44,393 bases of DNA from Patescibacteria group bacterium. GTDB taxonomy: Bacteria; Patescibacteriota; Patescibacteriia; Buchananbacterales; SURF-54. Made by a program: the position numbers and the translations under genes. The stretch is from the NCBI GenBank assembly GCA_018818885.1, contig JAHIRB010000004.1:1-44393 (forward strand). Reading direction: 5' to 3'. Below, in pieces: positions 6,132 to 38,360 of the stretch (within the stretch, counting starts at the first letter, position 1; each line of letters opens with the position of its first letter). The notes under the pieces are model-generated. The model searched no databases, was not told where the DNA came from, and saw nothing but the letters and a program-made list of their open reading frames with translations.

Positions 6132-7901
6132 ATGGAATCACTAACAAAATTCAACAATTTAAGTCAGGCAGAAAAAAAGATAGTGCAGGAAATTAAATCT
6201 TTGATAATTCTTGCTTCTAAACAGATATACAATTATTCTATTGATGATGATTTGATATATGTGATTTATCCACCTGAAAACTCAATGGGGGATTATTCTG
6301 TACCATGTTATACCTTTGCACACGTTGCTAAAGAACATCCAGTAGAGATTGCCAAAAAATTGCATTCGATAGTATTTGCACATGTAGCGACTAAGAAAAA
6401 AGGGTTGATACAAAAAGTAAAAGTTGAGGGACCTTACCTTAATTTTTTTGTTAGCCCAAAATATTTTGAAACCACTTTAAATCAAATCAACAAAGAAAAG
6501 GAGAAATTCGGACATTTCAAGAAATCAAAACCAAAAAAAATTATGATTGAATATATCTCTCTTAATACGCATAAAGAATTTCATGTAGGTCATTTACGAA
6601 ATGTTTGTCTGGGTTCTGCAGTGGTCAATATTTTGCGGAGTCAGGGAGATAAAATTGTGGCTGCAACATATACTAATGATTTCAGCTTGCATGTTGCGCA
6701 ATGTCTTTGGGGCTGGTTGGATTTTGGACACAAAGAAAAGTTACCAAAAAATAAAGGCAAATACTTGGGACAACTTTATGCACGGTCAGTTCAAAAAATA
6801 TCTGATAGCCCAACAAGTAGAGTCCAAGCACTAAGTATATTAAAAAAACTTCATGCTGGAGATAAAGAACTAACCAAACTTTGGCAAAAAACAAGTAAAT
6901 GGAGCTTGGATGAATTTGAAGAAATTTATAAAGAACTAGGAATTAAGTTTGATGCCTATTTTTTAGAAAGTCAGTTTTATCAAGAAGGCATGAGAATGGT
7001 TAAAAAGATGTTAAAGAAAAATATACTAACAGAAAGTGATGGTGCAGTAATAGCAGATTTAAAAAAATATGATTTGGGTGTTTTAGTATTTTTACGCAGT
7101 GATAGCACCCCCTTGTATCCAGTAGCCGATGTTCCAATGGCACTAGAAAAATTCAAAAAATATAATTTAGACGAAAGTTATTATATTGTTGATGTTAGAC
7201 AAGGTTTTTATTTTAAGCAATTATTCAAAATTTTAGAGTTGCTGGGGTTAAAAAAATCACTCAAACATATTGATTATGAATTTGTCACCTTGCCAGAAGG
7301 AGCAATGGCTTCGCGCTTAGGTAGAGTGATTTTACTTGACGATTTGTGGGAAGAAGTTTACAAACGAGCATATTTAGAAACAAAAAAACGCCATCCAAAA
7401 TGGTCGGGTACAAAATTACAAAAAACAGCACGGGCAATCTCTTGGGCTGCAATAAAATTTGGCATGTTAAAACAAAGTAACGGTAAAGTAATAGTTTTCG
7501 ATACAAAAAATTCAACTAAAACAACAGGCTTTACTGGACCATATCTTCAATATATGTACGCACGTATTAGTAGCATATTGAAGAAACAAGGTTCAAGGTA
7601 CAAGGTTCAAGGTACAATTGACTATACAAAACTAAATACTGAGCATGAACGTCAATTAATTAAACTAATAAGTTCTTATCCGCAAGTAGTTGAATTAACT
7701 GCTAATACTTTTGAGCCATTCAACCTAGTTCAATATTTGTATAATTTGGCTTCTAGTTTTTCTTCGCTTTACGAAACAGTACCGATACTAAAAAGTGATA
7801 AAGAAACAAAGCAAGCTCGTTTATATTTAATTAAACAAGCGCAGACAGTTTTAAAAAATGGATTGGAATTACTTGGTATTGAAGTGTTGGATGAGATGTG
7901 A
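6132..7901 (+). CDS. argS: Arginyl-tRNA synthetase
   Basis: 589 aa; EFHVGHLRN signature, GFTGPYLQYMYARI, C-terminal DALR-like region. Confidence 0.95.
   Translation: MESLTKFNNLSQAEKKIVQEIKSLIILASKQIYNYSIDDDLIYVIYPPENSMGDYSVPCYTFAHVAKEHPVEIAKKLHSIVFAHVATKKKGLIQKVKVEGPYLNFFVSPKYFETTLNQINKEKEKFGHFKKSKPKKIMIEYISLNTHKEFHVGHLRNVCLGSAVVNILRSQGDKIVAATYTNDFSLHVAQCLWGWLDFGHKEKLPKNKGKYLGQLYARSVQKISDSPTSRVQALSILKKLHAGDKELTKLWQKTSKWSLDEFEEIYKELGIKFDAYFLESQFYQEGMRMVKKMLKKNILTESDGAVIADLKKYDLGVLVFLRSDSTPLYPVADVPMALEKFKKYNLDESYYIVDVRQGFYFKQLFKILELLGLKKSLKHIDYEFVTLPEGAMASRLGRVILLDDLWEEVYKRAYLETKKRHPKWSGTKLQKTARAISWAAIKFGMLKQSNGKVIVFDTKNSTKTTGFTGPYLQYMYARISSILKKQGSRYKVQGTIDYTKLNTEHERQLIKLISSYPQVVELTANTFEPFNLVQYLYNLASSFSSLYETVPILKSDKETKQARLYLIKQAQTVLKNGLELLGIEVLDEM
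7587..7614 (+). repeat. Tandem 14-bp repeat inside argS (CAAGGTTCAAGGTA x2)
   Basis: caaggttcaaggta caaggttcaaggta read directly. Confidence 0.85.
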
Positions 7902-7902
7902 A

Positions 7903-7996
7903 GTTTAGTAGTTTAGTAAATTAGTGTTTAAGTGTGTAAGTACTTGAACACTAATTTACTTGCATACTTATTTACTAAACTACTTGCACACTTGCC
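7903..7996. repeat. Intergenic inverted repeat of reiterated TTAGT/AAGTA words
   Basis: GTAAATTAGTGTT (7916-7928) / AACACTAATTTAC (7947-7959) perfect 13-bp arms within longer imperfect arms. Confidence 0.75.
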
Positions 7997-8024
7997 AACT
8001 AATCGTTATAATACACAATGTTCT

Positions 8025-8120
8025 ATGAATAAAAAAAGATTTAAAATTTTAATCGTAGAGGACGACCCCGTACAACTCCCGTTGGTCGTATACGGGGCGA
8101 GAAGATGTAATAAAGTTTAA
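8025..8120 (+). pseudogene. Truncated REC N-terminus fused to a palindrome
   Basis: MNKKRFKILIVEDDPVQLPLVVYGARRCNKV*; first ~14 aa resemble the downstream REC gene, then CCCCGTA…TACGGGG hairpin. Confidence 0.7.
8066..8097. repeat. CCCCGTA…TACGGGG palindromic element
   Basis: Perfect 7-bp arms with internal CAACtcccGTTG. Confidence 0.75.
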
Positions 8121-8134
8121 TAGTAGTTATTTTT

Positions 8135-8518
8135 ATGCCAAACGTAAAAAAGAAAATATTAATAGTAGAGGACGAAGCTTTCCTATTAGACCTTTATCAA
8201 GCCAAACTGGTAAAGGAAGGTTTTGAGGTAGTTACATGCATTAATGGAGAAGAAGGCATCGCTTGTGTTATTGATCACTCTCCAGATTTAATTTTGCTTG
8301 ATATCTTAATGCCTAAAGTAGATGGTTTTGGTTTGCTTGAAGAAATTAAAAAACTGCCGGGTACAAAAAAAATTCCAGTAATTATTTTTTCTAATCTTTC
8401 ACAAAAAGAACAAATAGATAAAGGCCTAAAATTAGGTGCTGCGAGTTATATCGTAAAAACTTCTGTTACACCAGCACAGCTAGCGCAAAAATTAAAAGAC
8501 TTTTTAAAAATTAAGTAA
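8135..8518 (+). CDS. Stand-alone response regulator receiver (REC) protein
   Basis: 127 aa; ILIVEDEAFLLDLY, DLILLDILMP, VIIFSNLS, SYIVKTS. Confidence 0.92.
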   Translation: MPNVKKKILIVEDEAFLLDLYQAKLVKEGFEVVTCINGEEGIACVIDHSPDLILLDILMPKVDGFGLLEEIKKLPGTKKIPVIIFSNLSQKEQIDKGLKLGAASYIVKTSVTPAQLAQKLKDFLKIK

Positions 8519-8525
8519 TATATTT

Positions 8526-8708
8526 ATGAATCCAACAGTAAACGCAGAAACGTGCATTGGTTGCGGAACATGCGAATCATTATGTGGTGGAGTTTTTAAA
8601 GTAGAAGATGACGGCAAAGCGCATGTTGTAGAAGGTGACCACGAAGTTAACAAAGATTGTATTAATAAAGCTGTGGAAGCTTGTCCAGTACAGGCAATTG
8701 TAGTATAG
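8526..8708 (+). CDS. Ferredoxin, single [4Fe-4S]
   Basis: 60 aa; CIGCGTCESLC … ACPVQAI. Confidence 0.92.
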   Translation: MNPTVNAETCIGCGTCESLCGGVFKVEDDGKAHVVEGDHEVNKDCINKAVEACPVQAIVV

Positions 8709-8792
8709 TTCTAGAGATTAGAGTTATTAGAGAGATTATAGTTAATTATAGTAACTCAAATCTCTACAATCGCTACAATAACTCTAATTAAC
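8709..8792. repeat. Intergenic inverted repeat of reiterated AGAG/CTCT-containing words
   Basis: AGAGTTATTAGAGAGATT … AATCTCTACAATCGCTACAATAACTCT. Confidence 0.65.
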
Positions 8793-8814
8793 TTTCATTT
8801 AAAACTTCGCATAC

Positions 8815-8901
8815 GTCAAAAAAAAACGATATTAGTAGTTGATGACCCCGTACAAATCTCACTTCGTTCGATTTTACGGGGCGAGACGAGGAGTTAAAGA
8901 T
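8815..8901 (+). pseudogene. Second truncated REC N-terminus (no start codon) fused to a palindrome
   Basis: KKTILVVDDPVQISLRSILRGETRS*; about 30 nt nearly identical to the start of the REC gene at 8919. Confidence 0.7.
8846..8881. repeat. CCCCGTA…TACGGGG palindromic element
   Basis: CCCCGTA(c)AAATC … GATTTTACGGGG. Confidence 0.75.
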
Positions 8902-8918
8902 CAATAAAATATTATTTT

Positions 8919-9299
8919 ATGGCAAATGTAAAAAAAACGATATTAGTAGTCGATGACCACAAGTTTTTAAGAAATTTTTGGGAAAGTAAATTAAGTGCTA
9001 ACGATTATAATATCAGAAAAGCATCTGATGGTTTGGAGGCAATTAAAATTGCACGAGTTGAACCACTTGATATAATTTTGTTAGATATTGTGATGCCTCA
9101 CATGAATGGTTTTGAAACACTAAAGAATTTAAAGGCAGACGAAAAAATCAAAGATATTCCAGTGATTGTTCTTTCTAATCTTGGTACTGACGAAGAAATA
9201 AAACAGGGGATGAAATTAGGTGCAATTGATTACATTGTTAAGTCAGACGTTATTCCATCAGAAGTAGAACAAAAAATTAAGAAATATTTAAAGAACTAA
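8919..9299 (+). CDS. Stand-alone response regulator receiver (REC) protein
   Basis: 126 aa; ILVVDDHKFLR, DIILLDIVMPHMNG, VIVLSNLG, DYIVKSD. Confidence 0.92.
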   Translation: MANVKKTILVVDDHKFLRNFWESKLSANDYNIRKASDGLEAIKIARVEPLDIILLDIVMPHMNGFETLKNLKADEKIKDIPVIVLSNLGTDEEIKQGMKLGAIDYIVKSDVIPSEVEQKIKKYLKN

Positions 9300-38194: not shown

Positions 38195-38324
38195 TTTCTA
38201 CCTTTCAACGCCGTATTTGTAATAAGTACATTTGTATTGATTAGTAATTCGTAACGGTTTTCGTAATTAAAAATTCCGCAGTGCGCCGCGGAAATATTAT
38301 GAATATCAATCTTAGCAACACCTT

Positions 38325-38360
38325 CCCCGTATTACGGGGTAAATAGCTTAATTAAGCTAT
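38325..38360. repeat. CCCCGTA-t-TACGGGG followed by the perfect 18-bp palindrome ATAGCTTAATTAAGCTAT
   Basis: Read directly; enclosed by ACCTTCC…GGAAAGGT. Confidence 0.75.

Follow-up and report, generated by a model that had tools for sequence, protein, structure and literature searches.

The window considered here, that is, the whole stretch of 44,393 nt that was analysed, is contig JAHIRB010000004.1 of assembly GCA_018818885.1, from a member of the Patescibacteria whose genome (1.35 Mb in 51 contigs) is referred to below as G000. Between positions 8026 and 8956 the window carries the same arrangement twice over: the cut-off start (here called a stump) of a gene for a single-domain response regulator (REC), then a hairpin, then about 35 nt, and then an intact REC gene. 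The original prediction, that two hairpins with truncated REC starts stand ahead of intact REC genes, is borne out, both genes being confirmed by Pfam, and both hairpins fit the motif proposed there exactly, the number of matches expected by chance being 0. This pattern of stump, hairpin and gene is not restricted to REC genes. The features of the region are as follows.

7985 to 8012, + strand: sigma-70-like promoter TGCACA-16-TATAAT (consensus scan only; number of matches not above chance)
8026 to 8065, + strand: stump 1, the cut-off first 40 nt of the REC1 gene, MNKKRFKILIVED+GA (sequence)
8066 to 8101, + strand: hairpin 1, CCCCGTA..TACGGGGCGAG (pattern match, fold, covariance model)
8102 to 8134, + strand: new untranslated leader ahead of REC1 (sequence)
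8135 to 8175, + strand: REC1 replacement gene start, MPNVKKKILIVED+GA, which closes insert unit 1 (sequence comparison)
8135 to 8518, + strand: REC1, single-domain response regulator (Pfam PF00072, Response_reg, E 4.4e-23)
8526 to 8708, + strand: ferredoxin, a bystander between the two units (PF13370, E 3e-14)
8811 to 8845, + strand: stump 2, the cut-off REC2 start, ..RQKKTILVVD+GA (sequence)
8846 to 8885, + strand: hairpin 2, CCCCGTACAAATC..GATTTTACGGGGCGAG (pattern match, fold, covariance model)
8886 to 8918, + strand: new untranslated leader ahead of REC2 (sequence)
8919 to 8956, + strand: REC2 replacement gene start, MANVKKTILVVD+GA, which closes insert unit 2 (sequence comparison)
8919 to 9299, + strand: REC2, single-domain response regulator (Pfam PF00072, Response_reg, E 3.4e-25)

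Measured from the start of the hairpin to the end of the second copy of the gene start, the insert unit is 110 nt long in the first case (8066-8175) and 111 nt in the second (8846-8956). Stump 1 is similar to the beginning of an uninterrupted orthologue in another genome (G388; MPKKQFKILIVED), and the promoter match just 5′ of it is probably the native promoter of REC1. Decay has already set in at stump 2, since no in-frame start codon is left in it. Contrary to what had been claimed, the two breaks do not fall at the same codon; they lie one codon apart, codon 14 being broken in REC1 and codon 13 in REC2. The further claim that each stump resembles its own downstream gene is correct for stump 2, where 23 of the last 24 nt agree, while for stump 1 it holds mainly at the protein level, there being synonymous differences. 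Imperfect, AT-rich long inverted repeats are found directly 5′ of both stumps (7900-7990 and 8710-8795; ACTTGAACACTAATTTACTTGC.. and GAGATTATAG..CTCTAATAAC..), and repeats akin to these, ACTTGAGTACTTG, lie on both sides of the hairpin copy at C41 (L004). At 38320-38345 the window also contains a short perfect palindrome, CCCCGTATTACGGGG, which is like the outer stem of the hairpin but has no GCGAG tail.

The hairpin family and the second copy beside it

The consensus of the hairpin family can be written as CCCC-G/A-stem-AG-stem..C-stem-TACGGGGC-A/G-AG, with variants across Patescibacteria of several classes. G000 itself holds five exact copies of the form seen in the window, and a covariance model built from 16 copies finds 17 candidates there at E<=1, or 8 at E<=0.003; overall the copy number in this genome is put at no fewer than 10. 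Occurrence is patchy, with 9 of 379 sampled genomes positive by strict pattern and 11 of 379 by the covariance model combined with strict filters; the hairpin is scattered over at least eight other genera, and the genome collection yielded three more strict-pattern matches, all in Patescibacteria. The inner stem, on which the search pattern placed no demand, has a mean minimum free energy of -6.5, as against -2.8 for shuffled sequences. Directly 5′ of the hairpin there is an A in 65 of 78 cases, and the bases following it are GAG, AAG or AGG. Rfam recognised no known RNA family at the hairpins in ten loci, and a literature search of incomplete coverage found nothing relevant on such elements in Patescibacteria.

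The sequence that is cut off at the hairpin recurs beyond it far more often than at random positions. When the 45 nt 5′ of each hairpin were aligned to the 130 nt 3′ of it, with the match anchored at the hairpin edge, a second copy scoring at least 36 was found for 19 of 78 hairpins versus 3 of 2993 random positions, while for scores of at least 26 the corresponding figures were 29/78 and 52/2993. This second copy is diverged, usually lies 70-80 nt on, and is fused to the intact gene; the distance from GGGGC to its end is 70-79 nt in 14 of the 29, with a minority at 34-66 nt, and in nearly all copies it falls between 29 and 85 nt, the second copy itself being 14-45 nt long. In several copies the stretch 3′ of the hairpin resembles the right side of the target over 8-14 nt, clearly so in typA, 5S, tRNA-Pro, polA and dinB (these right-side pieces were read by eye, as were the codon counts and the ends of upstream open reading frames mentioned below). 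A pure 70-nt target duplication was considered and rejected, because in some copies (typA, 5S, tRNA-Pro) what follows the hairpin is a continuation of the target's right side. The pattern also held prospectively, in that all four hairpins found later (at a glycosyltransferase beginning MRIGID, at ribosomal protein L16 and twice at dinB) proved to consist of a stump followed by an intact gene.

There are also hairpins without any second copy. One (L255) lies in frame within a gene, while two identical 33-nt in-frame hairpins (EYPAPVASLRYGAS) occur in orthologous genes of G210 (L208) and G383 (L254), whose flanks are only about 57-65% identical despite the identity of the hairpins. In viral contigs a loose hairpin pattern gave mostly GC-rich chance matches, and the two strict matches found there (CCCCAGTAG..CTACGGGGC; L357 and L358) are intergenic and have no second copy.

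Targets and uninterrupted sites

The gene starts affected are those of REC, clpP, dnaG, polA, a glycosyltransferase, dinB, typA, hrcA and L16 genes, and one gene, uvrA, is affected at its 3′ end; the other targets are 5′ or 3′ parts of tRNAs, 5S rRNA, the region after 16S rRNA, and -35 boxes, including that of an rRNA operon promoter. (The names clpP, polA, dinB, typA (GTP_EFTU) and L16 are backed by Pfam, whereas hrcA, uvrA, dnaG and the glycosyltransferase were named by sequence motifs.) Entry sites lie near gene ends and nearly always after an A: between TTGA and C in promoters, at a VD, ID or RQA codon in genes, and in the T- or D-arm of tRNAs. For promoter targets the distance is likewise about 70-77 nt, although the only shared sequence is TTGA. 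The same site may be struck in distant lineages, as with the glycosyltransferase start M(R/K)IG(I/L)D in G000, G210 and G336 (different classes) and the HID codon of dinB in G035, G336 and G354 (different families); the D-arm of tRNA-Leu(CAA) is the target in both G126 and G245.

Some of the RNA-gene copies have features of their own. In L005 (G000:C45) the hairpin copy is immediately 3′ of the 16S rRNA gene and has an exact 21-nt flank repeat; at about 190-400 of the same locus the 16S rRNA gene apparently has an AT-rich insertion, and such insertions in 16S rRNA genes are frequent in Patescibacteria. Five copies of tRNA type (L252, L262, L177, L179 and L182) have in common a second motif, TTTACCCCGTA, shortly past the hairpin, which could pair with the 3′ arm of the hairpin as an alternative structure.

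The comparison of empty sites that had been proposed as a check proved possible, since relatives with uninterrupted sites were found for typA, uvrA, hrcA and the REC1 orthologues. Within genus g175, typA is interrupted in G210 only and uninterrupted in G245, G287, G295 and G362; the gene body in G210 is that of an ordinary member of the genus, its stump (MKRNNIRNIAIIAHVD) is the genus-type start with the genus-type leader upstream, and its functional start reads MPTRNNIRN... The dnaG gene is interrupted in one of eight species (G295). For hrcA the interruption is seen in G245, while in G170 and G383 the start is truncated at the same RQA codon with a hairpin that is different or eroded, and the gene is uninterrupted in G287, G295, G303 and G210; its CIRCE-like promoter is located upstream of the stumps. 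Where this could be checked (hrcA and typA), it is the stump that carries the native promoter or leader. When the flanks are joined, 11 of 12 start-type cases yield a gene start that is in frame and falls at the expected residue; this restoration of frame is expected, since the new start corresponds to its homologue, the stump, codon for codon, but the joining does show that nothing else is missing. The REC1 orthologues within the order have no stump; ahead of the start of one of them (G390) there is an apparent eroded tail, GGGGCGAGACGAG. The typA gene of G245 has an in-frame insert, NPAYRQAGA (L210), which looks like a translated palindrome from another repeat family.

The case of uvrA bears most directly on mobility. 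In G245 and G383 the segment TATCTTAAGAAAGTATTGTAGGGCAGCTTGCCCCG, comprising the new end YLKKVL* and a hairpin arm, is identical at 35 of 35 nt, while 60 nt of the preceding gene body are identical at only 42 positions and the displaced native ends that lie beyond the hairpin are not alike; the shared segment ends within 3 nt of the junction, and in five other species only the native end is found. The genus is star-like, G245 and G383 being no nearer to each other than to the rest, so that common descent of the uvrA case is unlikely; for hrcA and uvrA alike, common descent was considered and found to be unsupported by the species relations. Some 1.7 kb downstream of uvrA in G245 (L314, G245:C89, 2060-2185) there is a second uvrA 3′-end fragment with new end, hairpin and displaced end.

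A candidate mobile element and its rivals

These comparisons show the anatomy of the sites (precise junctions, a displaced native end and a new functional end), their recurrence, the existence of uninterrupted relatives, copies at the same site in distant genomes, and one shared replacement end. The explanation that we favour, with a probability only slightly above 0.5, is that the hairpins mark copies of a mobile mini-element, non-autonomous and palindrome-bearing, that measures about 60-120 bp and in Patescibacteria enters and rebuilds gene ends. Repeated insertion of a palindromic element, one of the two possibilities originally proposed, thus gains from the uninterrupted relatives, the spread over unrelated genes and genomes and the four new copies; the target duplication that was to accompany it does not stand as a plain duplication, since the second copy often differs synonymously and the uvrA species share the new end and not the old.

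Read in the direction of the hairpin, such an element would start with the hairpin CCCC..GGGGC and (A/G)AG; in several copies 8-14 nt resembling the target's right side would come next, and a short spacer would then lead to a substitute for its left side. It would enter a specific site near a gene end, where the native end would be severed and left behind as a stump, and the end supplied by the element would take over, bringing a new ribosome-binding site, promoter or terminator; the target gene would survive because of this takeover. The unit from hairpin to new end would presumably move as a whole and recognise its site by the resemblance that the carried end bears to the target, and the folded hairpin may be acted on by an enzyme of host or phage. 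A fuller version, judged as a whole, supposes a new kind of mobile element in which a palindrome of about 40 nt takes along a copy of its target's end and is directed by it to the corresponding site in further species. Each side of the target would have its counterpart within the element (the carried end for one, the 8-14 nt for the other), and the enzyme, acting in trans, would be RNA- or single-strand-guided; this version we regard as speculative and rather unlikely.

Several points weigh against a mobile mini-element. No enzyme was found among the families searched (Y1 transposases and IS110): a Y1/RAYT transposase was rejected as mobiliser, there being no Y1 in the hairpin-bearing genomes G126, G230 and G376 and no family hairpin at the Y1 loci fetched, as was IS110, whose DEDD recombinase occurs in 3 of 28 genomes and is absent from G000 itself. 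The inner hairpin differs between the uvrA copies of G245 and G383, and therefore the unit was not passed on unchanged. A second copy is detectable at only about 29-36 of the 78 hairpins, so that part of the family lacks the neighbouring duplication on which the original prediction was to stand or fall. In some tRNA cases (L258) the stump pairs with the bases that follow it instead of with the intact tRNA, as though one complete gene copy had been fused to another. An insert that is precise would, moreover, have to carry a gene-specific end, for which the mobile element offers no source, and every genome compared is a metagenome assembly.

The main rival to this mobile element is a hairpin like those of repetitive extragenic palindromic (REP) sequences, situated at, or causing, a break near a gene end, which is then rebuilt from orthologue or paralogue DNA, for example through natural transformation. 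Stump and new copy do differ as orthologues of different species would, with roughly half of the shared residues using the same codon by hand count (0.50-0.58 between species); recoding against self-targeting was rejected on the same count, even though typA, clpP and L16 look recoded. The copy-less hairpins described above, in frame inside genes or intergenic in viral contigs, also fit, as do some tRNA stumps that represent a different, self-consistent tRNA copy (L258), and this last favours such repair for at least some copies. What it leaves unaccounted for is the preferred distance of 70-80 nt, the striking of the same codon in distant lineages, and a uvrA segment that stops within 3 nt of the junction next to a gene body matching at 42/60, and overall we consider it an unlikely explanation, if the most serious competitor.

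Improbable, in our view, is the selected leader that the original prediction offered as its other possibility, in which truncated start, hairpin and nearby stop would form a translated upstream open reading frame regulating the downstream gene by coupling or attenuation. Most start-type cases do keep the frame open through the hairpin, ending near the new start codon, so that re-initiation may in practice be how the gene is expressed; but the same layout is found at the 3′ end of uvrA, at tRNA 3′ ends, at 5S rRNA and at -35 boxes, for which reason a leader is poorly supported, and the arrangement is patchy among species within one genus and includes a stump (stump 2) without a start codon. Less probable again are scars of larger phage- or ICE-like integrative elements, for which gene ends would have served as attachment sites and whose later deletion would have spared the restored and the displaced end together with part of the element. 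Elements of this sort routinely restore the gene end that they target, and tRNA T-loops are among the sites, but no larger version with cargo separating the hairpin from the new end appeared in the contigs searched for distant second copies, the insert lengths are narrow, and both uvrA cases would require the same deletion twice. Assembly artefact or chance, which the metagenomic origin of all the genomes might suggest, is very improbable given the many independent assemblies, an expectation of 0 hairpins and the four prospective matches out of four.

Known systems and significance

Among known systems, the REP sequences mobilised by RAYT proteins, with their GTAG- and CGTC-tagged palindromes (PMC3733652), are similar in being short imperfect palindromes (20-46 nt), scattered, some of them within genes, with structure kept as sequence varies. 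The Patescibacteria hairpins, in contrast, have no unpaired terminal GTAG or CGTC tag (where GTAG does occur, in some copies, it lies within the stem), none lies beside the Y1 loci fetched, and with their insertion the gene end is rebuilt. Rickettsia palindromic elements and other in-frame repeats like miniature inverted-repeat transposable elements (MITEs) lie inside the protein; they are likewise palindromic, belong to reduced genomes and can sit within genes, as L255 and L208/L254 do here, whereas the main class described here truncates a gene end and supplies a new one, and does so also at 3′ ends, tRNAs, rRNA and promoters. A MITE would have terminal inverted repeats and a short fixed target duplication, in place of which there is here one hairpin at one end only, and a second copy that varies from 14 to 45 nt and is frequently diverged.

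Elements of the tyrosine-integrase type (attL/attR) share integration at conserved gene ends, a carried replacement end and a displaced end kept as a remnant, but the units here are about 60-120 bp long, with no integrase or cargo between the copies and a hairpin at the junction, and synonymous differences often separate the carried end from the target. Integron cassettes (attC) are likewise small units of which one end is a folded imperfect hairpin, with the joint at the hairpin edge; on the other hand, no attC core motifs were noticed by eye, there is no array, and what the units here contain is a gene end that matches their target. Finally, the bridge RNA of IS110 and the guide of TnpB offer a precedent for choosing a target through sequence that the element contains or that adjoins it, and for an element that mirrors the sequence to either side of the joint, although IS110 is absent from most hairpin-bearing genomes and a guide RNA is here hypothetical.

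A practical consequence concerns annotation, which such sites mislead through their stumps, promoters and start-codon calls. If the mobile mini-element is real, it would be among the smallest known target-specific mobile elements, and conserved genes (tRNA, rRNA promoter, typA, polA, L16) could be entered without killing the host, because the element would rebuild the end that it interrupts. Its existence would further suggest that Patescibacteria possess a recombination or guide mechanism not yet described, and it would provide a route by which species exchange gene ends.
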